A stretch of DNA of 64,000 nt from an uncultured Pelagibacteraceae bacterium. Its GTDB lineage: Bacteria > Pseudomonadota > Alphaproteobacteria > Pelagibacterales > Pelagibacteraceae. The notes under the pieces were generated by a model, which was given only the letters and a program-made list of their open reading frames with translations, was not told the origin of the DNA and searched no databases. Position 1 is the stretch's first letter. Every line of letters begins with the position of its first letter. The stretch covers positions 85,856 to 149,855 of the forward strand of contig CACOWO010000001.1 in the NCBI GenBank assembly GCA_902630925.1. Direction: 5' to 3'. This document shows, one piece after another, positions 4,063-58,019 of this stretch. The position numbers and the translations under genes are program-made.

Positions 4063-5901
4063 TTATTCGTGAAAATAATCATATATTTTCTTTGCGATAT
4101 TGTCTTCAATTCCTTCAACTGACTTTAAATCATCATAACTTGCAGACTCTACAGCTCGCGCAGACCCAAAATGATTTAATAGAGCTCGCTTTCTTTGTTT
4201 TCCTATTCCTTGAATTTGATCAAGCAAAGACTTACTAAGGTTTTTCTTTCTTTTAGCTCTATGAGTGCTAATAGCAAATCTATGCGCCTCATCTCTTAGT
4301 CTTTGAATAAAAAATAGAAGGGGGTCATTTTTGTTTAAGATAAACTCTTTATTATTGTGATAAATTTTTTCTTCTCCTGCATTTCTTCTTTTACCTTTTG
4401 CCACAGCCAAAATTGGTAGATCGTGTAAACCAAGTTCATTCAAAACCTCTCTACTTACTGAATATTGTCCTTTACCTCCGTCAATTAAAATCAAATCTGG
4501 AAGAGATAACGAACCTGATTTTTCTTTTATAGCTTTTGAAAATCTTCTAAATAAAACTTCTTTCATCATTCCATAATCATCATTTTTTACTTTCTCATCC
4601 TTAATATTAAATTTTCTATATCTTTTTTTAACAAAACCCTCATTACTAAAGCATATTAGTGCTCCAATAGAGTCTGTACCTTGAATATGACTGTTATCAT
4701 AAACTTCTATAAGATCTATATTGCTATTAAGTTTAAATTTAGCAGCAAGAGATTCAATTAAATTATTATTCGTATCAGATTGAATTAGTTTTTGTTTTAA
4801 AGCTTGTTTTGCATTTTTTTCAGCTAGTTTTGAAATAGATACTTCATTTTTTGCTTTAGCTTTTTTAATTATTATCTGTTTACTCTCTTTTGAGGAGAAT
4901 GTTTTCTCAAGAAGTTTTTTCTCGTTAGTTTCAATATTTGTAAGAATTAAAGCAGGTATAGTTTTGTTTTCATAAAATTGAGATAAAAAAGATGATAAAA
5001 TTTCCTCAATTTTATCATCCGTATCATGTTTTGGATAAAATGCTTGGTTACCCCAGTTTTGTTTGGATCTAAAAAAGAAAACCTGAATACAAGTTTTTCC
5101 AGTTTCTTTATAGATACTTATTACATCAGCTTCATTTAAATTGGTTTGATTAATCTTTTGAGATGTTTGTATTTGGGTTAAAGCTTTTATTCTATCTCTT
5201 GCGATAGCTGCTTTTTCGTAATCAAGTTCTTTACTGGCTTCTTCCATCTCTTTAGATAAGTTTTTTTGAATTCTTCTTGATTTACCTGAAATAAAATCTA
5301 TCGCATCATTTACGGTAGATAAATAATCTTTTTCTTGAATATGTCCAACACAAGGTCCAGAGCATCTTTTAATTTGATACAGAATACACGGACGGTCTCT
5401 ATTTTTAAAAACTGTATCATCACAAACCCTTAATTGAAAAATCTTTTGTAGAATTTTAATTGTCCAGTTGGCTGAACCTATTGATGCAAATGGACCAAAA
5501 TAATAACCTGTTTTTGATTTTTTTCCTCTCAACTTAGTTAGTTGAGGCCATTTATCTTTATTACCAATGTATATGTATGGAAAAGATTTATCGTCTCTCA
5601 ATAAAATGTTGTACCGAGGTTTATGTTTTTTAATTAAGTTTGCTTCAAGCAATAAAGCCTCACTTTCATTACTTGTAGTAGTTGTCTCTAAGTTATGAGT
5701 TAGAGATAACATTCTCTCAGTCCTAATAGGTAGATTTGAGTCTGTTACGTAACTCTTAAGCCTGTTTGGGATATTTTTTGCTTTACCAATATAAAGAATT
5801 TCTCCTGTTGAGCTCAACATTTTATATACGCCAGGATTTTTAGGAATTAATGGTATCTGATCTTTAATTACTTTTTTACCTAACTCTAAACTGTTTATCA
5901 T
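4063..5901 (-). CDS. uvrC: Excinuclease ABC subunit C
   Basis: GIY-YIG domain [29 protein letters not shown], UvrC RNase H-like domain [19 protein letters not shown]-terminal HhH. Confidence 0.95.
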
Positions 5902-6293
5902 AATTTAGTCTTTGAAACTTCAATACCAACTGATTTAGTTTTTTTAAGGATATCTAGTTTTTCTAATTTTAAATTTATTTTTTTAACAAGTTTATTTTTA
6001 AAAATAATATTAAAAATATTCTCTGCCAAATCCTCAAGTAATTCATGATGTTTAAAGTTTGTAAGTTTTTCAATTTTCATTACAACTTCTTCATAATTTA
6101 AAATTGAATTTAAGTCTCTTCTATTTGGAGACACATAAGGATCTGTCAAAATTTCAATATTAAATTTTACCCTTTGCTTATTTTTTTTTTCAAAGTCATG
6201 TATTCCAACTAAAATCTTCAAAGTAAGATCTTTAATGATTACTTTTCTTTTGTATTTAAATTTTTCTCTTTTTTTAAATTTTATTATTTTCAT
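5898..6293 (-). CDS. folB: Dihydroneopterin aldolase-like protein
   Basis: [30 protein letters not shown]...[29 protein letters not shown]. Confidence 0.75.
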
Positions 6294-7045
6294 TCTTTTG
6301 TATTAATTATATCAGGCGTTTGCCATGCCAGTCTTTGCCCACCATCAATATTAATTATTTCTCCAGTTATACTTTTGTTTTCAATAAGAAATTTTACCCC
6401 ATTACAGATATTTTCTAAATCTACTTTTTTTCTTAATATTATTGACTTCCACTGTTTCTTAAAATGTCTCTCAGATTGTCTTTTATTTTTTAAAGTAGGA
6501 CCAGGTGAGATACCATTCACTCTAATATTAGGAGCCAATTTCATTGCTGAGGTTTTTGTTAAAACCGCTAAAGAAGATTTACTTAAAGTATATGAGAAAA
6601 AAAAGGGAGTTAATTTTTCAACTCTTTGGTCAATAATATTCACAATACATCCCTCTTTATTTTTCAATAATTTATAAAAGTTTTGAGTCAGAATAGCAGG
6701 CGCTTTTAAGTTTACATTAATATGTTTTGAAAATGATTTTTCAGAGAAATTCTCAAGATTATCATTTTCAAAAATAGAAGCATTATTAATTAGACAATCT
6801 AAGCCTTTCATCTTTTTATGTGCAGTCCTAATTAAATTATTGGATTGCTTAAAATTATTTAAATCTGCTTTTAATAGAAAAGTCTCAGCGCCAAGCTCCT
6901 CTAGTTCTTTTTTTAATTTTAAAGCACTACTTTTAGATTTATTAAAATGAATAACCATTTTAGTATCATAATTTACTAAGCTTTTTGCAATTGCAGCACC
7001 GATCCTTGTAGCTCCACCAGTAATAATTATTTTTTTGGCTTCCAT
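6290..7045 (-). CDS. SDR-family oxidoreductase, possibly FolM/PTR1-like pteridine reductase
   Basis: [18 protein letters not shown] (TGxxxRIG), [44 protein letters not shown]; adjacent to folB. Confidence 0.75.
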
Positions 7046-9198
7046 TTTTTTATTACCTTTTTAGGTTTTGTACCTGGCATTCCCATCGTTGATCTCCCTT
7101 TTGGGTAAACCTTACTTTTTAAATTATATTGAGAAATTTTTGGATTTAAAGTTATTTCAAGTTCACTTGCTTCCAACTTTCTCATTTCATCTCTTAATTT
7201 TGCAGCCTCCTCAAACTCTAAGTTAGACGCAGCTTCTTTCATCTTTCTATTTAATGCTTTTAGATGCTTTTTTAAGTTTCCGCCTACATTTGAGCCTTCA
7301 CTAATTTTTACGTAATCTTTTTCATAAACTGACTCTAATATATCGCTGATCTCTTTTTTTACAGACTCTGCAGTTATCCCATTTTTTTTATTATATTCTA
7401 ACTGCTTATTTCTTCTTCTTTCAGTTTCCTTTATAGCTTTATCGATACTTTTTGTGACTTTATCAGCATACAAAATTACTTTACCATCTATGTTACGAGC
7501 AGCTCTTCCAATAGTTTGTATTAAAGAAGTTTCAGATCTTAAAAAACCTTCTTTATCTGCATCTAATATTGCCACCAAAGCGCACTCAGGTATATCTAGT
7601 CCCTCTCTCAATAAATTTATGCCAACAAGAATATCAAATACTCCCATTCTTAAATCTCTAATAATTTCAATTCTTTCTAAAGTATCTATGTCGGAATGCA
7701 TGTATCTTACTTTAAGACCATTTTCGTGAAGGTACTCAGTAAGATCTTCTGCCATCTTTTTAGTAAGTGTTGTGGCAAGAACTCTATAACCTTTTTTCAC
7801 TATTTCTTTTGCTTCATGCATAAGATCGTCCACCTGAGTTTTAGCTGGCCTTATTTCTACCGGCGGATCTATTAAACCTGTTGGTCTAATGATTTGATCA
7901 ATATGTTTATTGCTAGTTTGTTTGAGTTCCCATGGCCCTGGGGTAGCAGACACGAATACAGTTTGTGTTCTCATTAAATCCCACTCCTCAAATTTTAAAG
8001 GTCTATTATCCATACAGGACGGTAGTCTAAATCCATACTCAGCCAAGGTGCTCTTTCTTGTACGGTCTCCTTTATACATTCCATTTAATTGAGGAACAGT
8101 TACATGACTTTCATCTACAAATATAATTGCGTTATCTGGAAAATATTCAAATAGAGTAGGTGGAGGTTCTCCGGCTTTTCGTCCAGATAAAAACCTCGAA
8201 TAATTTTCGATGCCTGCACAAGTTCCAGTCGCTTCAATCATTTCTAAATCAAATTTAGTTCTTTCTCTTAGTCGCTGCTCTTCTAAAAGTTTATTATTCT
8301 TTCTGTGTTTTTTTAAAGTTTCAGTTAATTCAGATTTTATTTGTCTAATAGCTTGATCGATAGTTGGTTTTGGAGTTATGTAGTGGCTATTAGCGTAAAT
8401 TTTTATAATGGAGTAATCATTTGTTTTATCACCAGTAAGTGGATCAAATTCTTCAATCTTTTCTAATTTATTTAAATTAAAACTTATTCTCCAAGCTCTA
8501 TCTTCCAAATGTGACGGAAAAATTTCTAAATTTTCTCCTCTTACTCTAAAAGTACCTCTAAAAAAATTTTGATCATTTCTTTTGTACTGTAAGTTTATAA
8601 AAGCTCTGATTAAATCATCCCGCTCATACTCATAATTCTTTTTTAAAGTAATTGTCATTTTTGAGTACGCCTCTACAGAACCTAAACCATAAATACATGA
8701 TACACTCGCAACAATAATTACATCATCTCTTTCCAACAAAGATCTTGTTGCCGAGTGTCTCATACGATCAATTTGCTCATTAATTGAAGCTTCTTTTTCT
8801 ATATAAGTATCAGATCTAGGAACGTATGCTTCTGGAGTGTAGTAATCGTAATATGACACAAAATATTCTACAGCATTATCTGGGAAAAAACTTTTAAACT
8901 CTCCGTACAATTGAGCAGCTAAAGTTTTATTTGGTGCTAGAATTAGAGCTGGTCTATTAGCCTTTTCGATAACTTTTGCCATTGTAAAAGTTTTACCCGA
9001 TCCAGTAACCCCCAAAAGCACTTGTTCTTGTTTGTTATCTTTTAAGTTTTTTAATATTTGCTTAATAGCCTCTGGTTGGTCACCGCTAGGTTGAAAATCA
9101 CTTTTGATTTTAAAGTTAATACCTCCCTCTAACTTCTTAATTTTTTTTGAGTTATTAACTTCTAGATCAGCTAATTTTTCTTGATAAGTATTTTGCAT
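7027..9198 (-). CDS. uvrB: Excinuclease ABC subunit B
   Basis: [14 protein letters not shown]...[17 protein letters not shown]...[12 protein letters not shown]...C-terminal UVR motif. Confidence 0.97.
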
Positions 9199-9236
9199 TT
9201 TGTGTTAATAATAAATTAATTATATTATAAATTTCA

Positions 9237-10424
9237 ATGAGCATAGTTTCCAATAGTTTAAAACGTATAAAACCGTCGCCTACAATAGCAGTTACATCAA
9301 AAGCTAGAGAAATGAGAGCTGCTGGAAAGGATGTTATAGGTTTAGGAGCTGGTGAGCCTGATTTTGATACTCCAGATAATATTAAAGAGGCAGCAATAGA
9401 AGCGATTAGAAAAGGCGATACAAAATATACTGCAGTGGATGGAACCCCAGCGTTAAAAAAAGCTATCCAAGCAAAATTTTCTAGAGAAAACGATTTATCA
9501 TATGAGCTTGATCAAATTTCAGTTGGAACTGGTGGAAAGCAAGTTTTATATAACGCTTTTATGGCAACTATAAATAAAGGTGACGAGGTAATTATTCCAG
9601 CTCCTTATTGGGTTTCTTATCCTGACATTGTTTTGTTAGCTGGGGGAAAACCCATAATAATTAAATGTGATGAAAAAAATAATTTTAAATTAACACCAGA
9701 AAAATTAAAAAAGGCAGTTTCAAAGAAAACAAAGTGGATAATTATAAACTCTCCATCTAACCCTACAGGCTCTGGCTATACCAAAGATGAGATAATAGCT
9801 TTATCAAAGATTTTAATAAAATATAAAAATTTATATATTTTAAGCGATGATATTTATGAGCATATTACTTATGACGGATTTAAATTTTTTACAATTGCCC
9901 AAATTGAAAAATTAAAAAGCAGAACTTTAACTATGAATGGAGTAAGTAAATCTTACTCAATGACTGGCTGGAGGATAGGTTATGCCGCAGGCCCAAAAGA
10001 AATTATTAAAGCGATGGCTAAAATTCAATCCCAATCAACTAGTAATCCCACATCTATAAGTCAAGCAGCTGCAGTAGAAGCTTTGAACGGAACACAAGAC
10101 TTTATTTTAGAGAGATCAAATTCTTTTAAAGAAAGAAGAAATTTTGTTGTTGATAGTTTAAATAACATAAAAGGTATCAGTTGTTTAAGTCCTGAAGGAG
10201 CTTTTTACGTTTTTCCTAATTGCAAAAAATTACTGAACAACAAAACTAAACTAAAAACTGACAAAGACTTTGTAGAAAAGTTGTTGGAAAAAGCCGAGGT
10301 AGCTGTAGTTCAAGGCTCTGCTTTTGGTTTAGAAGGTTACTTTAGAATATCTTACGCCACATCAATGGATAATTTAAAAAAAGCAATGGAAAGAATTAAA
10401 TCTTTTTGTAATAGCCTTAATTAG
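9237..10424 (+). CDS. aspC: Aspartate aminotransferase (class I)
   Basis: SLKRIKPSPTIAVTSKAREMRAAGKDVIGLGAGEPDFDTP...NGVSKSYSMTGWRIGY. Confidence 0.93.
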   Translation: MSIVSNSLKRIKPSPTIAVTSKAREMRAAGKDVIGLGAGEPDFDTPDNIKEAAIEAIRKGDTKYTAVDGTPALKKAIQAKFSRENDLSYELDQISVGTGGKQVLYNAFMATINKGDEVIIPAPYWVSYPDIVLLAGGKPIIIKCDEKNNFKLTPEKLKKAVSKKTKWIIINSPSNPTGSGYTKDEIIALSKILIKYKNLYILSDDIYEHITYDGFKFFTIAQIEKLKSRTLTMNGVSKSYSMTGWRIGYAAGPKEIIKAMAKIQSQSTSNPTSISQAAAVEALNGTQDFILERSNSFKERRNFVVDSLNNIKGISCLSPEGAFYVFPNCKKLLNNKTKLKTDKDFVEKLLEKAEVAVVQGSAFGLEGYFRISYATSMDNLKKAMERIKSFCNSLN

Positions 10425-11367
10425 ACTCAGATAAATATTTTTCAGCCTCAAGCGCAGACATACAGCCCATACCAGCAGCTGTAACAGCTTGTCTGAAAAT
10501 TTTGTCTTTTACATCTCCCGCTGCAAATACTCCCGGAATATTTGTAGCCGTCGAGTCCGGTTTAGTTATAAGGTATCCTTCTTTATCCATTTTTAATTGA
10601 TCTTTGAACAAAGATGTAGCTGGATCATGACCTATAGCAATAAATAAACCGTCAACTTTAAGATCTTTAACTTTATTATCTTTTACATTTTTAATTTTTA
10701 ATGCATTCACAGTTTTAGGCTCTTTTGTACCTAATACGTCTTCAACAACACTGTCCCAAATAATTTCTATTTTTTTGTTTGCTTTTAATTTTGCTTGAAG
10801 CATTTTTTCTGCTCTTAATTCATTTCTTCTATGAATTAGATAAACTTTTGAAGCAAACTTAGTTAGAAACATTGCTTCCTCAACAGCTGCGTTTCCTCCA
10901 CCAACTACAGCTACCTCTTTTTCTTTGAAGAAAAATCCGTCGCACGTAGCGCAAGCTGAAACTCCGAAACCCCTGAATTCTTGCTCAGACTTCAAATTTA
11001 ACCATCTAGCTTGTGCGCCTGTTGAAATTATGAAACTATCTGCAGTGTAAATTTGTCCGCTATCACCAGTTGCTGTGAAAGGTTTTTTCGTTAAATCAAC
11101 TTTACTTATGTGATCTTGTATCATTTCTGTCCCAACAGCTTCCGCTTGACCTTTCATTTCATCCATAAGCCAAGGACCTTGAATCACTTTTGCGTATCCA
11201 GGGTAATTCTCAACATCAGTTGTAGTGGTCAATTGTCCCCCAGGTTGAGAACCATGAACAAGTATTGGTTTAAGCATCGCTCTGGCCGCATAAATAGCTG
11301 CTGTATAGCCAGCAGGACCAGATCCAAGAATTAACACTTTTGTATGTTTTGTTGATTTATTATTCAT
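10417..11367 (-). CDS. trxB: Thioredoxin-disulfide reductase
   Basis: KVLILGSGPAGYTAAIYAARAML...CATCDGFFF; start taken at MNNKSTKHTK (ATG at 11367). Confidence 0.95.
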   Translation of the reverse strand: MNNKSTKHTKVLILGSGPAGYTAAIYAARAMLKPILVHGSQPGGQLTTTTDVENYPGYAKVIQGPWLMDEMKGQAEAVGTEMIQDHISKVDLTKKPFTATGDSGQIYTADSFIISTGAQARWLNLKSEQEFRGFGVSACATCDGFFFKEKEVAVVGGGNAAVEEAMFLTKFASKVYLIHRRNELRAEKMLQAKLKANKKIEIIWDSVVEDVLGTKEPKTVNALKIKNVKDNKVKDLKVDGLFIAIGHDPATSLFKDQLKMDKEGYLITKPDSTATNIPGVFAAGDVKDKIFRQAVTAAGMGCMSALEAEKYLSESN

Positions 11368-11390
11368 TATGTAGAGGTATATAGTAACTA

Positions 11391-12344
11391 ATGTTAGAAT
11401 TAAAAGCACTTCTTTTAACGCAAGGTATGCACGGTATGGTAAGCCAAGTAGAAGGATTGGCTAAAGCTTTGGGCCTAGATTACAAACACCAAAAAATTGA
11501 ATTAAAATCTTTTTGGAGTCTTATTCCACCACGAATCAGTCCGATTTCAGAAAACTTGGTAAAAAATAAATTTGTGTGTGATTGTAAAGTAATTATATCA
11601 TGTGGAAGAAAAAGTGTAATACCATCAATTGCATTAAAGAAAAGACTAGGAAACGAAATTTTCAACATTCATATACAAGATCCAAAAATATCATTCAAAC
11701 ATTTTGATCTTATAGTAAGCCCAGAGCACGATAATTTAAAAGGTGAAAATATAATTAATACTACTGGTGCAATTCATTATTTAACCAAAAAAGAAATTTT
11801 GGATAACGCTCAATATTTAGAATTAGAGAAAGACAAAAGAAGAGAATTTGTTGCTTTTATTATTGGAGGACCAAATAAATATTACAAATATTCTGAAAAA
11901 GAAATTCATCAACTTTTCAACAAAGTAAAAACTTTGTTCACTCCTGATAGATATAAGATAATTGTCATTCCCTCTTATCGAACACCTGAAAATATTTTAA
12001 AAATAGCCTTTAATACCTTCAATGAAGATCATCACGTTGTAAAAACTATTGACAAAAAAGCTTATCTTTCTGCATTAGCCATTTCCAATTATATTGTTGT
12101 TACGTGCGACTCTACGTCAATGATTTCAGAGGCAGCGATTACAGGGAAACCAGTTTACATTGCAATGATGAGGTCCTTAAAACCTGCTTGGAGGTTCAAA
12201 AAATTTTATTCACAATTAAGGGATTTAGGTATATCAAGAGAATTAGGCAATAGCGTTGAAAGTTGGAGTTACAATAAATTAAATGAAGTGACTAGAATAG
12301 CTCCAATTGTAAAAGCAAAAATGAAAAAAAATGGAATTATTTAA
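11391..12344 (+). CDS. ELM1/GtrOC1-family (DUF1022) putative nucleoside-diphosphate-sugar epimerase / mitochondrial fission ELM1-like protein
   Basis: LLTQGMHGMVSQVEGLAKALGLDY...DLIVSPEHDNLKGENIINTTGAIHY...VTCDSTSMISEAAITGKPVYI. Confidence 0.75.
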   Translation: MLELKALLLTQGMHGMVSQVEGLAKALGLDYKHQKIELKSFWSLIPPRISPISENLVKNKFVCDCKVIISCGRKSVIPSIALKKRLGNEIFNIHIQDPKISFKHFDLIVSPEHDNLKGENIINTTGAIHYLTKKEILDNAQYLELEKDKRREFVAFIIGGPNKYYKYSEKEIHQLFNKVKTLFTPDRYKIIVIPSYRTPENILKIAFNTFNEDHHVVKTIDKKAYLSALAISNYIVVTCDSTSMISEAAITGKPVYIAMMRSLKPAWRFKKFYSQLRDLGISRELGNSVESWSYNKLNEVTRIAPIVKAKMKKNGII

Positions 12345-12996
12345 ATCTTTAGAAAATAAAATAAAATTATTTAACGATCCCTTCAAACATTTTGAAATTA
12401 ACGAACCTTTAACGCAAAGTGCAATTGATGAAATTAGCAATGCTGAAATAGCTGATCCAAGAAAACAAAATTTAAACTACGATGGAACAAGAGCTCTTGA
12501 CGGTGGTGAAGGAGCGTTTAGAGCTGGAATTAAAGATGGTGGAAAAGCAAAAAAAATTAGGTGTTACGTAACTAAAGAAAACTCTAGTCAGTTTCCAAAC
12601 TTAACAAAATTTATTGAAGAATTAAGATCTCCTAAAGTTTATAAAAAAATTGGATTATTAATTGGAAAAGATTTGAATAATTCTTATGTAAGACTAGAGG
12701 TGATTTGTGACCGAGAGGGATTTTGGCTTAAACCTCATTGTGATATTGAGGAGAAATTAATGTCTTCAATTGTATTTGTTAATTTACATAATGAGTCGGA
12801 AAATTTAGGAACAGATTTTTACGATGCAAATTTAAATAAAGTTAAAACAGTACCTTATAAACATAATTATGGATACTTCTTTACTAGTGGACCAAACACT
12901 TGGCATGGAATGGAAAAAAAAGAGATTAAAAAAGAGAGAAGATGTATTCAAATAAATTACGTTACCTTCGAAACTGATTGGAAAGTTAAAAGTTAG
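12331..12996 (+). CDS. 2-oxoglutarate/Fe(II)-dependent oxygenase-like protein
   Basis: HxD in [16 protein letters not shown], distal H and R in [23 protein letters not shown]; overlaps end of the ELM1-like gene. Confidence 0.6.
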
Positions 12997-15900
12997 AGAT
13001 CTTGTAAAGAAGTAACGCTGATATCTTTTAATTTAAGAGATTTAATACCTTCCAAACAAACCTTGGCTGTTGACATATTAGTGCAATATGGAACTTTGTT
13101 AGCTAACGTTGCTCTTCTTAAAGCTACCGCATCGCTTAACTGAGCTTCACTATTTCCGCCACCTGTATTAATAACTAATGCTATTTTTTTAGTATTTAGA
13201 ATGTCAACAATATGAGGAGACCCTTGATTTACTTTATTAATTTTTTTACACCTAATACCATGTTTGTTAATATAATCAGCAGTACCTCCAGTTCCACAAA
13301 GTTTAAAATTTAATTTAATTAATTGTTTTGCTAGTTGAACACCTTCCTCTTTATGACTATTTTTCAAAGAAATAAAAGCTAAGCCTTTTTTAGGAAGAGA
13401 GTTTGACGCTGCAATTTGGCTCTTCGCAAAAGCCATCCCAAAATTTTTATCAAAACCCATTACCTCACCTGTAGACTTCATTTCTGGACCAAGTAAAAGA
13501 TCGCTATTTGGGAATTTATTGAATGGAAATACTGCCTCTTTAACTGCAAACATATTTTTTGTTTTACTTTTTAAATTAAATTTAGTTAAATTTTCTCCGG
13601 CCATCACTCTTGAAGCAATCTTAGCAAGCGGTAGATTTTTTGCTTTTGAAACAAATGGAACGGTTCTACTTGCTCTTGGATTAACTTCAATTACATAAAT
13701 TTTGTCTTTTTTAATTGCATACTGAACATTCATAAAACCTTTGACTTTTAGAGCTAAAGCTAATTTTTTTGTTTGATTTTCAATTTCTTTAATCAAAAAA
13801 GGTTTTATTGATACCGGAGGCAGACTACATGCTGAATCACCAGAGTGTATTCCAGCTTCTTCAATATGCTGCATAATACCAGCTACAAAAACATTTTTAC
13901 CATCTGCTATCGCATCAACATCAACTTCCATTGCATTATCAATAAACTTATCAATTAAGATTGGATTTTTTTCGGCGACTTTAAATGCTTCTTTTACAAA
14001 GTTTTTGAGTTGGCTTTTTTCATGAACAATCTCCATTGCTCTTCCACCTAACACGTAAGACGGTCTTACCATTAAAGGCAAACCAATCTTGTCTGCAATT
14101 TTTACTGCTTGAGGAAAAGTTCTAGCTATACCGCTTTCAGCTTGATTTAAATTAAGTTTATTTAAAAGATCTCTAAATCTATCTCTATCCTCTGCTAGGT
14201 CAATTGAAGCATACTGTGTTCCTAGAATTGGAAGTTTATTTTCATTTAGAAATTTTGCGAGTCTAATAGGAGTTTGGCCGCCAAATTGAGTAATGACACC
14301 TTTTACATTACCTTTTGACTTCTCTCTATTTATAATATTGAAAACATATTCATCTATTAAAGGTTCAAAATATAATCTGTCGCTAGTATCATAATCTGTT
14401 GACACAGTTTCTGGATTACAATTCACCATGATAGTTTCATATTTAGCTTCCTTAAGAGCAAAACTAGCTTGGCAACAACAATAATCAAACTCTATTCCCT
14501 GACCAATTCTATTGGGCCCTCCGCCCAGAATTATAATTTTATCTCTGTTAGAGGGGTTAGCCTCACATTCTGAATTAAAGGAGAAATTTCTTTGATAAGT
14601 AGAATACATATATGGAGTGAATGATTTAAATTCTGCAGCACAAGTGTCAACTTTTTTATAAACTGGTAAAACTTTTAAAGCAGTTCTTTTTTTTCTAATT
14701 AAAGACTCTGAAGTATTCGTAAGTTCAGATAATTTTTTGTCAGAAAACCCTATCGACTTAATATAATTGAATTCATTGAAATTTTTTGGAATACCTTTTT
14801 TCTTTATTTTAATTTCATTCTCTATGATTTCTTTTATTTGATTTAAAAACCAAGGGTCAATTTTCGAAAGTTTATTTATCTCATTTAAATTTATTTTTTT
14901 TCTTATGGCCTCTCCAACAAGTAAAATCTTATTTGGTATATTTTCCTTAAGTTTTTTTCTAATTTTATTTTTATTCAAGTTAAATATTTGGTCTAATCCT
15001 GAGAAACCTGTTTCTAAAGAGACCAAGGCTTTTTGAAGAGACTCTTTAAAATTTCTTCCGATTGCCATTGCTTCTCCAACCGATTTCATTGATGTTCCTA
15101 AAATTGCAGCGGAAGAGGAGAATTTTTCAAAAGTAAATCTTGGAATTTTCGTTACTACATAGTCGATCGTAGGCTCAAAAGATGCGGGTGTTACCTTTGT
15201 AATTTCATTTTTTAATTCGTCTAGAGTGTATCCTACAGCTAACTTTGCTGCTACTTTTGCTATCGGAAACCCTGTGGCTTTAGAAGCTAGCGCTGATGAT
15301 CTTGAAACCCTAGGGTTCATCTCAATAATCACCATCCTTCCATTTTTTGGATTTATGGCAAATTGAACATTTGATCCCCCAGTTTCTACACCGATCTTTC
15401 TTAAGCAAGCTATAGAGGCGTTCCTCATAACTTGATACTCTTTATCTGTTAAAGTAAGTGCCGGTGCGATAGTAACTGAGTCCCCAGTATGAATACCCAT
15501 TGGATCTAAATTTTCTATTGAGCAAATGATTATGCAATTGTCATTTTTATCTCTGACAACTTCCATTTCAAATTCTTTCCAGCCTTCTAAACACTCTTCA
15601 ACTAATACTTGATCAACAGGAGACTCGTGAAGTCCGTTCTTTATTATTTTATAAAAATCTTTTTTATTTTTTGCTATACCGCCTCCTAAACCACCTAGAG
15701 TAAAAGCCGGTCTTATAATTGCTGGTAATCCAATTTGTTTTAATACCTTTGAAGATTGATTAAAATTATTTACTATTTTTGATTTAGGAAGATCTAGACC
15801 AATCTCAATCATATTTTTTCTGAACTTTTTTCTGTCTTCTGCATTGGATATAGCTTTAGAGTTAGCGCCTATGAGTTCAATTTTATATTTTTTTAGAATT

Positions 15901-16217
15901 CCTTTTTTTTCTGCTTCCATTGCTAAATTTAATGCAGTTTGACCACCCATAGTTGGCAAAATCGCATCAGGCTTTTCTTTGATAAGAATTTTTTCAAGAA
16001 CTTCTATTGTTATAGGCTCAATATAAGTTTTATCGGCGATATTTGGATCTGTCATAATCGTTGCAGGGTTCGAATTTACGAGAATTACTTTGAACCCTTC
16101 ATCTTTCAAAGCTTTACAAGCTTGAGTACCTGAGTAATCAAACTCACAAGCTTGCCCAATAATAATTGGACCCGCACCTACAACTAAAATTTTTTTAATA
16201 TCTTTTCTTTTTGGCAT
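12993..16217 (-). CDS. carB: Carbamoyl-phosphate synthase large subunit
   Basis: [36 protein letters not shown]...; duplicated ATP-grasp architecture, 1074 aa. Confidence 0.98.
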
Positions 16218-17403
16218 TTTTTTTCATACTCTTTACAAATTTATCAAATAAATAAACACTATCTTGAGGACCAGGATTAGACTCTGGATGGTATTGGACT
16301 GAGAAGACAGGTTTATTTTTTAATTCAATACCCTCAATACTATTGTCAAATAAAGACTGGTGAGTAATTCTTATGTTTTTAGGTAAACCTTTTTTTATTA
16401 CTTCAAATCCATGATTCTGACTTGTAATTTCAACATTTCCCTCAATTAAATTTTTAACAGGATGATTAGCTCCTCTATGGCCTAATTTCATTTTTTCTGT
16501 TTTAGCACCAAGCGCTAGCGCTAGCATTTGGTGCCCTAAACAGATTCCAAATAAAGGTAATCTTTTTTTAATTAAGTCCTGAATTATTGGTATGGCATAT
16601 TTTCCAGTAGCGGCTGGATCCCCAGGCCCGTTTGATAAAAATATCCCATTAGGTTTAAGTTCAAGGATGTCTTTTGCGGCCGTCTTACATGACACGATTG
16701 TAACTTTACAATTAAAATCTGAAAAATACCTTAAAATATTTTTTTTAATTCCATAATCTATTGCTACTACGTGTAATAACTTTTTTTTATTTTTTAAATA
16801 TCCACTTTCTTTTTTCCAAGTTTTATAATCTTGCCACAAATAATTCTTCTTAGTAGTAACCTGTTTTGCTAAATCTAAGTTTTTAAGACCACCCCATTTA
16901 TTAGTAATTCTAATTAGTTTTTTTATATTAAATATTTTTTTGTTGTAAAAAGATATGGTTCCCTTAGGTGCACCTTTATCTCTAATAAAGTTAGTTAAAT
17001 TTCTAGTATCAATACCAGTTATTCCTACTATTTTATTTTTTTGTAACCATTGATCCAAATGTTTTAAAGATCTGTAATTTGACGGGTTGGTTATTTCAGT
17101 GTTTATTATTACTCCTTTAGCCCATATTTTGTCAGACTCGTGATCCTCTTTATTTGTTCCTACGTTACCTACATGAGGAAAAGTAAAGTTAATAATTTGA
17201 TCTGCATATGAAGGATCCGAAATTATTTCTTGGTAACCAGTAATTGAGGTATTAAAGCATACTTCACCAGTTGCAGTGCCTTTGTATCCCAAACCTACAC
17301 CCTTAAAAAATTTTCCGTTTTGGAGGACTAAAATAGCATTGGAGTCGATCTTTTTAAGATTTTTTTTTGAGTTTATATTTTGAGCAATCTTCTTCAAATA
17401 CAA
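16195..17403 (-). CDS. carA: Carbamoyl-phosphate synthase small subunit
   Basis: [39 protein letters not shown]...[33 protein letters not shown]. Confidence 0.97.
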
Positions 17404-52445: not shown

Positions 52446-52820
52446 ATGAGCAATTTTGAAAGTGTAAAAAAATTTATGAAAACTTTTGGCCAAGAAGTTA
52501 AAGAAAAAGCTGAATTTCCAAGCGGTAAAATCACTTCATTAAGGTATGAACTAATTTACGAAGAACTTGCAGAGTTCAAAGAAGCTATAGAAAAAAAAGA
52601 TATTAAGGAAGTGGCCGATGCTTTAACGGACATTTTATATGTAACATATGGTGCCGGACATGCATTTGGAATTAATTTAGATAAATGTTTTGAAGAGGTT
52701 CAAAATTCCAATATGAGTAAATTGGGTGATGACGGAAAACCAATTTATAACAAAAATGGCAAAGTTATGAAAGGACCAAAATATTTTAAACCAAATTTAG
52801 AAAAGATCGTATTGAGATGA
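52446..52820 (+). CDS. MazG-like / phosphoribosyl-ATP pyrophosphohydrolase-like protein
   Basis: [62 protein letters not shown], all-alpha NTP-PPase motif EELxE...DxLxD. Confidence 0.85.
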
Positions 52821-52905: not shown

Positions 52906-52936
52906 GGGGCGTTCTGTTGCTAGGTGCCCCAGACCT
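52906..52936. repeat. ssrA-3'-end repeat, copy 1 (distal boundary of the array)
   Basis: GGGGCGTTCTGTTGCTAGGTGCCCCAGACC matches the functional ssrA 3' end at 56766 over ~30 bp with 2 mismatches by eye. Confidence 0.85.
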
Positions 52937-52946
52937 CTTAAATTTT

Positions 52947-52997
52947 CTAGTTTGTAATCATAGCTAGTGCCATAACTAATATTAATACTTCTATCAT
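52947..52997 (-). CDS. Possible 16-aa hydrophobic peptide
   Basis: MIEVLILVMALAMITN with GGAG 8 nt upstream of ATG; very short, so speculative. Confidence 0.2.
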   Translation of the reverse strand: MIEVLILVMALAMITN

Positions 52998-53084
52998 TTT
53001 TCACTCCATTAATTTAATTATTAGATTACTATAAATTAATTCTATTCTAATAAAACTAAATTTATTCACTTATAAGTCCGTAAA

Positions 53085-53110
53085 GGGGCGTTCTGTTACT
53101 AAGTGCTATT
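53085..53110. repeat. ssrA-3'-end repeat, copy 2 (degenerate)
   Basis: GGGGCGTTCTGTTACTAAGTGCTATT; first 13 bp identical to ssrA copy, then diverged. Confidence 0.75.
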
Positions 53111-53190
53111 AAATCATTAACATTATTTATTGTTAAATTACAATTCTAATACAACCTGAAGCCCTTATTTCTTTGCTAGGAGAGCCCGTA

Positions 53191-53219
53191 TTGTGTCCGG
53201 CGGTGAGTCCGGATATGAT
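53191..53219 (+). promoter_or_regulatory. Cassette promoter, copy A (diverged)
   Basis: TTGTGT (53191-53196), 17-nt spacer, TATGAT (53214-53219), 7 nt before ATG 53227. Confidence 0.6.
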
Positions 53220-53226
53220 AAGTCTA

Positions 53227-53538
53227 ATGAAAAAACTTTTAGCGATCGTAGTTCTAGTTATGTTGTGGTGCAATATTTCTTACTCAGACATTAAAAGTGA
53301 TGCAAGTGAAACTATACTAAAAGCAAGTGCATGTTATTCATCTTTACCAAGCTATGCGCAGAAAGGTGCTGTCGATAGTTATTTAGATGCAATGACTTAT
53401 TGGAATGATGCTGTTAAAGAGGACAATATGGGCGATCCTCGTAGATTAGCATCTGCATTTTATCGTAATGCAATTGCATACGGTGGAGTTGTCTTACGAA
53501 TTGGTAGTGCATACGGTAGTCAAGCTTGCAGACAATAA
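53227..53538 (+). CDS. Small secreted protein of unknown function
   Basis: MKKLLAIVVLVMLWCNISYSDIKSDASETILKASACYSS...; signal peptide; start moved from 53173 to 53227. Confidence 0.7.
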   Translation: MKKLLAIVVLVMLWCNISYSDIKSDASETILKASACYSSLPSYAQKGAVDSYLDAMTYWNDAVKEDNMGDPRRLASAFYRNAIAYGGVVLRIGSAYGSQACRQ

Positions 53539-53602
53539 TGCACACATAGAGCGGATAGAATTAAATTAACCTAAATAACTATTAATAAATATAAGTTGCT
53601 AA

Positions 53603-53632
53603 GGGGCGTTCTGTTGCCAGGTGCCGTTAACC
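53603..53632. repeat. ssrA-3'-end repeat, copy 3
   Basis: GGGGCGTTCTGTTGCCAGGTGCC, 23 bp identical to the ssrA 3' end. Confidence 0.9.
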
Positions 53633-53696
53633 TTTAACGTTATATAACAATTCTAGATCATAAAAAATGGCTATTTCTTTGGTGGGTGAGTCCGTA

Positions 53697-53725
53697 TTGT
53701 GCCCGCCAGTGTGTTCGATTATGAT
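53697..53725 (+). promoter_or_regulatory. Cassette promoter, copy B
   Basis: TTGTGC (53697-53702), 17-nt spacer, TATGAT (53720-53725), 5 nt before ATG 53731. Confidence 0.65.
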
Positions 53726-53730
53726 GTGTT

Positions 53731-54102
53731 ATGGAAGATTTTCCTTCAAACGAACTAATTATAACTTTTAGTTTATATTCTTTTCTTGTCTTTTATTTGC
53801 AAAAATGGAGCAAAGAATTCATGGGAGCAAGCCAAGGATTTAGAATATTTTTAAATTTCTTTATGGGTATCTCGACAATTTTTGGTTTATTTTTCTTGAT
53901 TTATTATGGTTATAAAGTCGAATGGACTTCGCCACTAATTTTGTTTGCTATTTCTCTTTTCATTAAAGGTATTTTAATAGCTATTGAAGTTAAACTGTTT
54001 TTTAGAATTCAATATATAGTTCAATATATTGGCTTCATAAGTTTTATTGCTTGTCCAATATTAGCGTATAGATTGTTAGTTATATCAGGATTAATTCCAT
54101 GA
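53731..54102 (+). CDS. Multi-pass membrane protein of unknown function (cassette cargo)
   Basis: 123 aa with ~4 hydrophobic segments. Confidence 0.7.
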   Translation: MEDFPSNELIITFSLYSFLVFYLQKWSKEFMGASQGFRIFLNFFMGISTIFGLFFLIYYGYKVEWTSPLILFAISLFIKGILIAIEVKLFFRIQYIVQYIGFISFIACPILAYRLLVISGLIP

Positions 54103-54383
54103 AAAAAAGAAAGAGCCAATATTCAACGCGGGATTATACTAAAAAAGTTTATTGGTCTGGAGATAAAAAAGATTTAAGAAAATCATTCCCCAAGTGGACG
54201 ATGATTGCTTGGGCGTTAATTGATCTTACGCTTGGAGTAGGTTTAATTTGGCTTGCAATCAGTTGGGCTGAAAGCACTTGGGCTTATTATCTATTATTTA
54301 TTGGCGGACTTTTATCTTTTAGAATGTGTTACGTTCATTTAAGTTATTTATGGGGTGGAAAGATCTGGGGACCAAGCAAATGA
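54099..54383 (+). CDS. Small membrane protein of unknown function (cassette cargo)
   Basis: 94 aa, basic N-terminus then two TM segments; overlaps neighbours (ATGA-type couplings). Confidence 0.7.
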   Translation: MKKRKSQYSTRDYTKKVYWSGDKKDLRKSFPKWTMIAWALIDLTLGVGLIWLAISWAESTWAYYLLFIGGLLSFRMCYVHLSYLWGGKIWGPSK

Positions 54384-55090
54384 AAAAACTTTTAGCGATC
54401 GTGGTTCTGGGTTTGTTGTTATCAAATTGCGGACCTGTTAGACATTCATGGAAAGAAATTAATTATATTGTCGATCATAGAGATACAAGAAAAAATATTT
54501 TCAACACAAAAAAAGACTCATTAAAAACAATTTATGTTGGGGTTGGTACTGATTCTGATGAGAAATGGAAAAATATGTACTATACCAAAAGCATAGTTCA
54601 GCCCAAGGCACAACATTTTGCTCCAAAAGAAGTTATTGCAGAACAACAGTGTGTTAAAAACTTTGGACTCGAAAAAGCTGTTTTCAAAGAAATACTAGAA
54701 TTTTCAAAAGATGAAATAATAGAATATCGTTTAGGTTTTAAGAAATATGCAAAGTATTCTTGTGAAATATCAGAGAGACAATTAAAAGAGGCAAAAATTT
54801 TTCAAGAAAACACCTCATCATTAAATAATAATCAAGTTTCAAATAATACTTTAAATAGAACATTTAATTGCTCTTATCCTAGTGGAAGTTCAAAAATTAG
54901 AATTAGAGGTGGAACTGCAACAGAATTAACTTCAGCAGGTGTTGAGATTAAATATAATTATGTTGAGCTAACGAAAAAAGGAGCTTTCAGTTTAGAACAG
55001 TCTACAAAACCAGGACGTACGTTTTTTATAGGTGCTAAATCTTTTTTAAGTTTAGGTGGAGCTGAATTTTATAATGCAGTTTGTCGTTAG
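54380..55090 (+). CDS. Putative lipoprotein of unknown function (cassette cargo)
   Basis: MKKLLAIVVLGLLLSNCGPVRHSWKE, lipobox LSNC; start at 54380 rather than 54326. Confidence 0.75.
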   Translation: MKKLLAIVVLGLLLSNCGPVRHSWKEINYIVDHRDTRKNIFNTKKDSLKTIYVGVGTDSDEKWKNMYYTKSIVQPKAQHFAPKEVIAEQQCVKNFGLEKAVFKEILEFSKDEIIEYRLGFKKYAKYSCEISERQLKEAKIFQENTSSLNNNQVSNNTLNRTFNCSYPSGSSKIRIRGGTATELTSAGVEIKYNYVELTKKGAFSLEQSTKPGRTFFIGAKSFLSLGGAEFYNAVCR

Positions 55091-55094
55091 CGAG

Positions 55095-55182
55095 TGTGCC
55101 CTATGTGTGCCCAAAATAAAAAAAGTTGTGAATTAATAAGTGTTAACGCCAATACGCAGGGGCGTTCTGTTGCCAGGTGCCC
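55095..55182. repeat. 88-bp cassette right end, copy 1 (includes ssrA repeat copy 4 at 55159)
   Basis: TGTGCCCTATGTGTGCCCAAA...GTTGTGAATTAATAAGTGTTAACGC.AATACGCA-GGGGCGTTCTGTTGCCAGGTGCCC; ~85/88 identical to 56702-56789, no indels by eye. Confidence 0.95.
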
Positions 55183-55386
55183 TTAACCCACTTCTTCATA
55201 AGTACAATTTTCTGGATTGTACTTCTCATATTTACCGGTTTTTTCGTTTAAAGTCGTACCAGATAATCCCATTATACTTAACGCTTTATTTTTTTCTTTT
55301 TCTTCCAATTTTTCTTTAGTGTCGCACGCCGAATAGGCATTTTGCGAAAAAATTATTACTAGAAATATTACGATTATTTTTCTCAT
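55183..55386 (-). CDS. Small secreted protein of unknown function (reverse-oriented cargo)
   Basis: MRKIIVIFLVIIFSQNAYSACDTKEKLEEKEKNKALSIMGLSGTTLNEKTGKYEKYNPENCTYEEVG; signal peptide with AYSA cleavage site. Confidence 0.65.
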   Translation of the reverse strand: MRKIIVIFLVIIFSQNAYSACDTKEKLEEKEKNKALSIMGLSGTTLNEKTGKYEKYNPENCTYEEVG

Positions 55387-55403
55387 AATTTTTATTATCA
55401 TAA

Positions 55404-55433
55404 GGGGCGTTCTGTTGCCAGGTGCCCTTAACT
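55404..55433. repeat. ssrA-3'-end repeat, copy 5
   Basis: GGGGCGTTCTGTTGCCAGGTGCCC. Confidence 0.92.
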
Positions 55434-55498
55434 TCTTAACGTTATACAACAATTCTAGATCATAAAAAACGGCTATTTCTTTGCTGGGTGAGTCCGTA

Positions 55499-55527
55499 TT
55501 GTGCCCGCCAGTGAGTCCGGATATGAT
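55499..55527 (+). promoter_or_regulatory. Cassette promoter, copy C
   Basis: TTGTGC (55499-55504), 17-nt spacer, TATGAT (55522-55527), 6 nt before ATG 55534. Confidence 0.65.
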
Positions 55528-55533
55528 GAGTTC

Positions 55534-56103
55534 ATGAAATCTCTTCAGACAAGATATAATGATTTTAAAAAAAAAAATCTTTCTAAGCCCGGAATTGGAG
55601 AACTCTATGAACGCCAAATACGATATATCTATGAAAAAAATGGATGGTTCGTTAAACCCTACGGTATCTTAAAAGGTAGATCTGATTTAGGTAGAGATCT
55701 TCTTTGTTATAAAAAAAAGCAAATTCATATCGTTCAAGCTAAGTGCTGGTCTAGAAAAAGAACTATATTCGAAAAGCATATAATGCAGTTAGCTGGAACT
55801 ATTCTTCATTATATTAATAAACATAAAAAGAAGCCACAGGGGGTATTTATAACGACCGCAAAACTTTCACCAACAGCAAAAGACTTTGTTAAAAGTCTTA
55901 ATATAAAACATAGCTACATAAAATTAGATAAAAACTTTCCTATGATAAAATGCAACATTAATAGAAGGGGAAAGAGGCAATTTTTTCTACCTTTCGATAA
56001 ATTTTATGATCGTGTTCATATTGAAAAAAAGAAAGGTGAGTTTTATACTGATAGTATAAACGAGTGTATCAAAAAGGGATTTAAACATGTCGGAAAAAAC
56101 TAA
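55534..56103 (+). CDS. Mrr-like/PD-(D/E)XK restriction-endonuclease-fold protein (cassette cargo)
   Basis: GELYERQIRYIYEKNGWFVKPYGILKGRSDLGRDLLCYKKKQIHIVQAKCWS: E...GRD...QxK pattern; start at 55534 rather than 55501. Confidence 0.7.
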   Translation: MKSLQTRYNDFKKKNLSKPGIGELYERQIRYIYEKNGWFVKPYGILKGRSDLGRDLLCYKKKQIHIVQAKCWSRKRTIFEKHIMQLAGTILHYINKHKKKPQGVFITTAKLSPTAKDFVKSLNIKHSYIKLDKNFPMIKCNINRRGKRQFFLPFDKFYDRVHIEKKKGEFYTDSINECIKKGFKHVGKN

Positions 56104-56425
56104 TATTCTTTATCTTTGTGTGTTGATCGCAATAAGCGATTATGAGCTTCAGAACGAGGAGACCCATAAGATAATCAAAATCTCTAAAGAACTAAAAATT
56201 GATTTTAATGTTCATAATGCTTTTGAAGAGATACAAAATAAATTTCGTGAGGATTTTGATGCTGCTTGCAACTTTTATCTCAACAATATCACTACACCAA
56301 AATATCGACAACTAGCAAAAAAATATCTCAAAGATGTCGCGTTAGTTGATAATGATTTAAAGGACAGAGAAGTTAGATTTCTTGTTCTTTGCAAACAAGC
56401 TTGGGGTAGAGAGGCATTTGATTAG
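56087..56425 (+). CDS. TerB-like helical protein (cassette cargo)
   Basis: LIAISDYELQNEETHKIIKISKEL...LKDVALVDNDLKDREVRFLVLCKQAWG, TerB/DUF533-like pattern; overlaps nuclease gene by 17 nt. Confidence 0.5.
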   Translation: MSEKTNILYLCVLIAISDYELQNEETHKIIKISKELKIDFNVHNAFEEIQNKFREDFDAACNFYLNNITTPKYRQLAKKYLKDVALVDNDLKDREVRFLVLCKQAWGREAFD

Positions 56426-56517
56426 TGAAAATATTTAAAAATTTGATATAATAAATTAGTCCTGATTTAGAAATAAACTCTACTTGCTTGGACTTTAAAC
56501 AAACGCTAAAGGAGAAA

Positions 56518-56691
56518 ATGAAACTAAAAATACAATCAATAAAAGACTATTTTAAATCTAAAAAAGACAAAGGATTAAAACCAGTTTTTTTTAAAAAAAT
56601 TGGAGATCAAAATACATCTAGGGATGAGATGAAGAAAAATTTGATTGAAGTATTAGAGTCTCAAGGTTTTAAGATTAAAAACAAAAAATAA
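56518..56691 (+). CDS. Small basic protein of unknown function (cassette cargo)
   Basis: MKLKIQSIKDYFKSKKDKGLKPVFFKKIGDQNTSRDEMKKNLIEVLESQGFKIKNKK; AAGGAG ribosome-binding site upstream. Confidence 0.55.
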   Translation: MKLKIQSIKDYFKSKKDKGLKPVFFKKIGDQNTSRDEMKKNLIEVLESQGFKIKNKK

Positions 56692-56701
56692 ACTTTTTCA
56701 C

Positions 56702-56789
56702 TGTGCCCTATGTGTGCCCAAAGTTAAAAAAGTTGTGAATTAATAAGTGTTAACGCTAATACGCAGGGGCGTTCTGTTGCCAGGTGCCC
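56702..56789. repeat. 88-bp cassette right end, copy 2 (includes the functional ssrA 3' end at 56766)
   Basis: Direct repeat of 55095-55182. Confidence 0.95.
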
Positions 56790-57030
56790 CGGACCCCGTT
56801 ACTTAATTAACAAAGTTAATTAAGCTGCAAGTGCGTAACTTTCGTTAGCATTTGTAAATTGGCCCGTTACGTCGGAACCATCTCGTACGAAAGAATAGCC
56901 TTTAGACATCCGTCGATCCTAATTCACCCCCGTAAGTTGTAAATGGTGGAGGTGGTGGGTACTGCCCCCACGTCCGTAATGTTTATTACGAAATTCGTTT
57001 ATCGTCATAGTTGGAAAACCAACACTATTA
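56766..57030 (-). ncRNA. ssrA: tmRNA, circularly permuted two-piece alphaproteobacterial type (5' limit approximate)
   Basis: Minus strand: acceptor piece ...GTGGGGGCAGTACCCACCACCTCCACCA, short linker TTTACAACTTAC, then GGGGGTGAATTAGGATCGACGG...; GGGGGTG pairs with CACCTCC; tag frame GCT AAC GAA AGT TAC GCA CTT GCA GCT TAA = ANESYALAA; 3' GGGGCACCTGGCAACAGAACGCCCC hairpin/pseudoknot. Confidence 0.93.
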
Positions 57031-57071
57031 ATATAAAACTCTTATTAATAGATTCAATAAATTATTTCAAA

Positions 57072-58019
57072 ATGAAACTAACACCAGAACAAAAGCAAGA
57101 AATTGCAGATCAACAAGCTCAAAAAAACTCAACAAAAAGAGTTACTTCTCCAGAATTAGAAAAAATACTTTATGAGGTACTTCCAGTTTTAGATCACGGT
57201 TTTGTTCGCGTCGTAGATTATATGGGAGACGATAGTTCAATTGTTCAATCTGCCAGAGTTTCTTATGGAAAAGGAACTAAAAAGGTCTCAACAGATGAGG
57301 GATTAATTAAATATTTAATGAGACATTGGCACTCTACACCATTTGAAATGTGTGAAATCAAATATCACGTAAAACTTCCTATTTTCATTGCACGCCAATG
57401 GATTAGACATAGAACTGCAAATGTAAATGAGTATTCTGCGCGATACTCAATATTAGATAAAGAGTTTTATATTCCAGCCAAGGACCAGCTTTCGGCTCAA
57501 TCAACCTCTAACAGACAAGGTAGAGGTGATTTAATTACAGGTGAACAAGCTGATGAAGTTTTAAAAATTCTTAAAGATGATGCTACAAGAACTTATGACA
57601 ACTATGAAAAAATGCTTAATGAAAGATTTGATGGGAGTACGATAGACGAAAGCAAAGCAGGTCTAGCAAGAGAACTTGCTAGAATGAACTTAACTTTGAA
57701 TTCTTACACACAATGGTATTGGAAAACAGATCTACTAAACTTATTAAACTTTTTATTTTTAAGAGCAGACAGTCATGCCCAATATGAAATTAGAGTCTAC
57801 GCTGAAACAATGTTAGATACAGTTAAAAAATGGGTGCCAATTACTCATGCAGCATTTTTAGACTATAGAGTAGGCGCTGTTCATGTCTCTGCTAAAGGAA
57901 AAAAAGTTATTCAACAAATGGTAAAAGGTGAAAAAGTGAGCTTCGAAAGTTCTGGTCTCTCAAAGAGAGAATGGAATGAATTAATGGTATCTTTTGACTT
58001 TAAAGAAAAGATTGTTTAA
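57072..58019 (+). CDS. thyX: Flavin-dependent thymidylate synthase ThyX
   Basis: [19 protein letters not shown] (RHRxxxxxxxS motif); start at 57072, since the track start at 56943 lies within antisense ssrA. Confidence 0.95.

Follow-up and report, generated by a model that had tools for sequence, protein, structure and literature searches.

In a 64,000-nucleotide stretch of a Pelagibacteraceae (SAR11) genome, hereafter the window, the transfer-messenger RNA (tmRNA) gene ssrA is followed on one side by an array of small gene units, each bounded by a copy of the ssrA 3' end, here called the core. The results showed that this array is almost certainly real and built by site-specific insertion. 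A lambda-type tyrosine integrase acting in trans probably builds it, as an additive island of integrase-less mini-elements at ssrA. SAR11 are among the commonest marine bacteria and have tiny, streamlined genomes, and how they acquire genes is poorly understood. The ssrA locus is a family-wide exchange point with a defined site, defined units, a polarity and a candidate recombinase; mapped in this way, it makes SAR11 gene traffic directly testable.

The 25-base core, GGGGCGTTCTGTTGCCAGGTGCC, was matched exactly at 53603-53627, 55159-55183, 55404-55428 and 56766-56790. The copy farthest from ssrA (52906-52930) has one mismatch, and the copy at 53085-53107, which reads GGGGCGTTCTGTTACTAAGTGCT, has decayed: with four mismatches it is not a true copy of the core string. 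A preliminary description of this DNA had counted six direct copies in one orientation; their places and orientation held, but only four are exact. Every copy lies on the plus strand, 100 shuffles gave an expectation of 0, and no further copy was found outside the array in the 818-kb, 72%-complete assembly. Consecutive cores are 179, 518, 1556, 245 and 1362 bp apart, as described before. The copy at 56766 (GGGGCGTTCTGTTGCCAGGTGCCCC) is the true 3' end of ssrA, as had been proposed: it agrees with the match to a minus-strand permuted two-piece tmRNA at 56762-57061 (Rfam RF01849, alpha_tmRNA, 220.9 bits, E=9e-64; also found by ARAGORN), which encodes the tag ANESYALAA and whose 3' end is the putative attB. 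By reading, the only inverted repeat within the core is 5 bp long (GGGGC/GCCCC).

Repeated insertion at the ssrA 3' end, as the preliminary description had suggested, was strongly supported by the sidedness of the arrays, by empty sites, by units shared between genomes and by a gradient towards ssrA. A set of 160 units from 61 loci, with a median length of about 1.05 kb, comprised 14 shared families and 129 singletons. The unit next to ssrA in the window (unit 5, 55404-56765) matched the second of six units in the array at locus L058 with 99.2% identity over 1330 bp, and in the same two genomes ThyX and FumC showed 84.1% and 81.6% identity, respectively. Another pair of units reached 99.6% identity between genomes, compared with 82.7% for core genes, and small unarmed cassettes of 226-327 bp reached 94-98%, compared with about 82-84%. 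When shared units were aligned, identity began and stopped at the cores on both sides and the flanks were unrelated; between unit 5 and its L058 counterpart, slight differences stood immediately to the right of the core. These alignments indicate that the units are mobile as whole pieces running from one core to the next.

The core was present in 121 of 151 congeneric SAR11 genomes, with at least two copies in 83 and at least four in 38. Gene order was examined at about 100 loci, 40 fetched ones and 60 more that included other genera of the family. In most of the 40 fetched loci the order was FumC, MazG, a variable stretch, ssrA, ThyX and MRP, and the extra cores of these 40 were confined to the interval between the ssrA 3' end and MazG; the 60 further loci agreed with few exceptions. 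No core was reversed or lay behind the other end of ssrA in the 40 fetched loci; a control with shuffled sequence yielded no cores. The one-sided layout noticed earlier in the window thus recurred, in a single orientation, in every ssrA array examined. As expected from a search proposed in the preliminary description, copies clustered downstream of ssrA with variable content between them; the content differed in nearly every genome, and two sites were effectively empty, with a MazG-ssrA gap of 298 bp (L074) and 527 bp (L068). Cores independent of ssrA were rare, with single stray copies away from ssrA arrays at L159 and L164. In 143 genomes of other Alphaproteobacteria a core-like 18-mer gave at most two matches per genome, which is weak negative evidence because tmRNA ends differ there. 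A second array, with four cores, was observed at L165 (G060, 4662-16474), where it adjoins the 3' end of a gene for tRNA-Thr; the tRNA terminates in GGTGCCC, as does the matching right half of the core, and the cargo includes a protein with a caspase domain and a TPR-trypsin protein. At L051, L059, L065, L071, L073 and L195, variable insertions without core copies were present between ssrA and thyX.

Outside the core, long end repeats are common to two of the five units in the window (53603-55158 and 55404-56765); these repeats had been missed before. One repeat is 95 nt long (55095-55189 and 56702-56796, 94% identity) and the other 97 nt (53634-53730 and 55436-55532, 92% identity), and from their sequence both qualify as attP-like arms. 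In most complete units, one of a few arm families lies to the right of the core (the P' arm) and a partner arm lies to the left of the next core (the P arm). A word of 7-9 bases, such as TGTGCCC, TGAGTCC, TGTGATC, TACGACC, TTCGGCA, CTTCGTTG or GTACATAGT, occurs two or three times in each arm; the words vary between units, yet recur in both arms of one unit. Matched words in both arms were found in 46 of 121 units, compared with a mean of 13.6 and a maximum of 26 in 2000 shuffles. Such pairing is the design of a lambda-type attP, in which the words would be arm-binding sites. About a third of the units carry attP-like arms; the arm families were set by author-defined regular expressions, and the arm counts are lower bounds. 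Within the core, positions 1-13 are nearly invariant and positions 14-25 covary with the right-hand unit, so exchange probably takes place in the left half (GGGGCGTTCTGTT).

The arrays are also polar. With author-chosen detection thresholds, 36 of 79 ssrA-proximal units were two-armed versus 32 of 142 others (permutation p=2e-4), and distal cores were more decayed, their mismatches climbing from 0.87 to 2.7. This result points to growth at the ssrA end, and it fits insertion at ssrA followed by displacement and then decay. A minimal unit of about 126 bp was observed at L062 (4402-4551), in which the arms are fused at their repeats and no cargo is present.

In the mechanism that we propose, the ssrA 3' end would serve as attB, with strand exchange in the left half of its sequence. 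The mobile units would be circles carrying a lambda-like attP, that is, a core between two arms bearing a repeated, element-specific word. Rarer autonomous elements aimed at the same site (7.5-9.4 kb, two cases) would supply a lambda-type tyrosine integrase in trans, which would bind arms and core and recombine attP with the ssrA end. Each insertion would rebuild ssrA and shove older units outward, and genome streamlining would strip the distal units of their arms and of core sequence until bare single-gene cassettes were left. The layout, sidedness, core-to-core mobility, matched words and polarity, together with an integrase element of the same design at this site in other genomes, are what the sequences contribute to this scheme; excision as circles, action in trans, a vehicle between cells, of which phage or transduction seems the likeliest, and an integrase for the arm type of the window are steps that we infer.

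The units almost never encode a recombinase. A tblastn search of the arrays with six integrase queries found an integrase only at L061; the one at L223 and a remnant at L224 were found separately. Next to its distal core, the L061 unit (7.5 kb, 6392-13961) encodes a divergent protein of 409 aa, which has relatives in five more genomes of the family. At L223 the integrase gene adjoins the distal core of an element of 9.4 kb that immediately follows ssrA and bears CTTCGTTG words in each arm; L224 has a broken copy in the ssrA-MazG interval. The L223 integrase matched PHROG_1 at 1.8e-13, and all members of the L061/L223 family have the R, K, R and Y residues. An AlphaFold model of the L061 protein (mean predicted local distance difference test score 62) retrieved tyrosine recombinases in Foldseek at E of about 1e-6 with low TM-scores. 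Taken alone, the L061 integrase had no match in Pfam, NCBIfam, PDB sequences, phage records or IMG/VR, and it was assigned through its relatives in other genera. We regard the L061/L223 protein as the candidate recombinase, a divergent lambda-type tyrosine integrase whose elements share the arm design of the cassettes. The P' arm of L223 recurs almost unchanged in an integrase-less unit at L166, from another genus; this links the helper to dependent units for arm families C/D. Inside the integrase-bearing element there is also a gene for a small serine resolvase, distinct from the tyrosine-type integrase located at the distal core.

Several results weigh against a helper integrase acting in trans. 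Its gene is rare, being present in 6 of 397 family genomes and at ssrA in three, one of these the broken remnant. No integrase-bearing element was found with arm family A (TGTGCCC/TGAGTCC) or family B, the families that include the units of the window. About half of the units (102 of 221) have no recognised arm, yet some of them moved recently, and no cassette array was found in viral contigs.

A different recombinase might be responsible. The single resident Xer/IntI-like tyrosine recombinase of 304-318 aa that occurs in most SAR11 genomes could move all cassettes in an integron-like chromosomal system. Pfam detected a tyrosine recombinase, usually of that size, in 50 of 61 congeners and 158 of 182 genomes of the family. 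The Xer/IntI-like protein is 60-80% identical among those compared, has XerA, XerD and integron integrase as its nearest NCBIfam matches, and would account for the movement of unarmed cassettes; in the source genome of the window, the sole tyrosine recombinase detected by Pfam belongs to this family and lies on another contig. However, almost nothing precedes the SAM-like core-binding domain in this protein, and no domain for binding arms could be recognised, which leaves the paired element-specific arm words unexplained. It is also unlinked to ssrA, it found no match within the arrays when used as a query, and the integrases at ssrA are of a different family, so we consider this explanation unlikely. 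One such conserved recombinase was observed adjoining a glycosyltransferase-like gene at L015 (G000:C3, 1132-2046). A 2007 study reported an integrase gene in SAR11 hypervariable region 2 (HVR2) (PMC2217521), which may be the same gene.

Alternatively, the units could be packaged phage satellites whose arm words serve mainly as replication or packaging signals, with integration secondary. Their small size, matched end repeats and defence-type cargo would suit such a life, as would the phage-type sliding clamp on the autonomous element and the phages whose tmRNA has the identical 25-bp end. Against this, no replication gene was recognised in the short units, no arm sequence was matched in IMG/VR or phage records, and the repeats flank the core on both sides like attP arm sites; we hold this reading to be quite improbable. 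It is still harder to see the array as a fossil, in which islands like cis-mobilizable elements (CIMEs) decayed in place, are now immobile and owe their sharing to ordinary homologous recombination across the region. Decay does affect distal cores and arms, and about half of the units have no arms, but units more than 99% identical occur between genomes of about 82-84% identity, at different positions, among unrelated neighbours and with breaks at the cores. For several units this already contradicts the fossil reading, which we regard as very unlikely. Homologous recombination across the core itself was likewise rejected as a cause, since 13-25 bp is too short and the sharp breaks are at odds with it.

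For the integrase acting in trans, one extension is offered tentatively: the arm word might be a swappable address that selects the helper integrase, with the ssrA 3' end as a platform common to all cassettes. If so, specificity would lie in the arms, unlike in an integron, and many helpers with their dependent cassettes could share one array; phages whose tmRNA has the identical 25-bp end could then act as landing pads or vehicles. The exact core was found in eight IMG/VR contigs (L007-L014), one copy each, and in all of them it is the 3' end of the phage's own permuted tmRNA gene. These tmRNA ends could receive cassettes, although none was seen inserted. A phage origin of attP was tried and rejected, as the IMG/VR cores are phage tmRNA genes only and the arms have no viral match.

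The SAR11 array fits the broad class of tandem ssrA islands and CIME accretion, with target-end repeats on one side, content varying between genomes, and empty sites. In Dehalococcoides, strain-variable tandem islands lie within 100 kb downstream of ssrA with a 20-bp ssrA repeat between them, and 15 islands lack integration modules (PMC3146451). The SAR11 units are likewise variable, tandem, on one side of ssrA and bounded by ssrA-end repeats. However, the Dehalococcoides module beside attL is a CcrB-like serine integrase (DsiB/DsiA), whereas in SAR11 the distal core has a tyrosine recombinase beside it, and the SAR11 units are mostly 0.2-3 kb, nearly all integrase-less, equipped with matched arm words and spread across many species. 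CIMEs, described for decayed integrative conjugative or mobilizable elements, are att-flanked and integrase-less and arise by decay and tandem accretion (PMC5704250). SAR11 units resemble them in lacking an integrase, keeping att sites and accreting in tandem behind the target gene, and differ in being very small, in having attP-like arms and in forming arrays of up to about eight units throughout a bacterial family. Additive flexible islands at tRNAs, in which small cassettes leave partial direct repeats, are known from Actinomarinales (PMC7771536) and Methylopumilus fGI-2 (PMC10872708). Repeated addition of cassettes at an RNA-gene 3' end is common to these and SAR11. In SAR11 the target is ssrA, and attP arms, arm words, polarity and a candidate integrase could be resolved, which we did not find in the parts of those accounts available to us. 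Tycheposons, as summarised in PMC10872708, are 4-200 kb and carry their own tyrosine recombinase. They share with the SAR11 array an RNA-gene site, marine oligotrophic hosts and a tyrosine recombinase on the autonomous form, whereas SAR11 units are mostly below 3 kb and, apart from the rare autonomous ones, without recombinase. Arrays of integrons and of attC clusters lacking integron integrases (CALIN) contain single-gene cassettes with sites in one orientation and grow at one end (PMC11389934). The preliminary description had called the SAR11 array integron-like, which is apt for its behaviour (mobile single-gene cassettes, one orientation, growth at one end, integrase elsewhere) but not for its membership: the site lies at the 3' end of a tmRNA and has lambda-like arms, apparently instead of being a folded attC, and no intI next to an attI was found at the head of the arrays. 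The 2007 study looked for integron signatures in SAR11 hypervariable regions and found none (PMC2217521). The matched repeats in both arms of the SAR11 units may correspond to the arm-type sites of a lambda-type integrative element, to which the N-terminus of the integrase would bind. We found no account of such an ssrA array in SAR11 in the open literature, in line with the earlier impression that it was undescribed, although the Dehalococcoides layout is comparable; new here are the unusually small, integrase-less units and the matched-word arm design, tandem ssrA islands themselves being known.

The units of the window differ in completeness. Unit 5 (55404-56765, 1362 bp, plus strand) is a complete two-armed cassette. 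Its P' arm (55427-55532) has TGAGTCC at 55489-55495 and 55512-55518 and TGTGCCC at 55500-55506, and its P arm (56702-56765) has TGTGCCC at 56702-56708 and 56713-56719; 27 SAR11 stretches have a 26-mer of this P arm at a distance of 36 nt to the left of a core. Its plus-strand cargo comprises an Mrr-like restriction endonuclease (55534-56103, PF04471, 1.4e-10) and a TerB-like protein (56087-56425, PF05099, 6e-4, below the Pfam cut-off). Adjoining the P arm is a gene for a 57-aa protein (56518-56691, plus strand), whose homologues, in 8 of 9 occurrences including the window, stop about 78-106 nt short of the following core; this position makes it a candidate excisionase or arm factor. Unit 4 (55159-55403, 245 bp) is unarmed and bounded by cores, and its single gene encodes a 70-aa secreted protein (55183-55395, minus strand). 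Unit 3 (53603-55158, 1556 bp, plus strand) is two-armed (P' arm 53626-53730, P arm 55095-55158), with genes at 53731-54102, 54099-54383 and 54380-55090. Unit 2 (53085-53602, 518 bp, plus strand) is decayed, retains only a P' arm (53108-53223) and encodes a secreted 103-aa protein (53227-53538). Unit 1 (52906-53084, 179 bp), farthest from ssrA, is unarmed and core-bounded, with a hydrophobic 16-aa micro-ORF at 52947-52997 on the minus strand. Similar hydrophobic micro-ORFs of 16-23 aa (MSGxEIxxVxAVLYxI-like) stand beside the distal-most core in the window and at L051, L056, L063, L080, L191 and L196. By synteny, the conserved borders are a PRA-PH/MazG-like gene on the distal side (52446-52820, plus strand) and thyX beyond the other side of ssrA (57072-58019, plus strand).

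The cargo was surveyed in 151 units, whose 296 open reading frames fell into 181 clusters. Among the 25 commonest families per library, so that rare ones may be missed, were methyltransferases, trypsin-like peptidases, restriction-modification proteins, superoxide dismutase, SelO, carbamoyltransferase and DUF2784, besides many unknowns; by reading, larger units also carry type I and type III restriction systems. Taken with the many secreted proteins, the restriction systems, methyltransferases and trypsin-like proteases probably bear on phage defence and surface variation. Many secreted cargo proteins share the signal peptide MKKLLAIVVLGLL, which suggests that gene 3' parts are shuffled behind this common start. 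The start is near-identical in DNA as well, at 53226-53266 and 54379-54419 of the window and in many related units.

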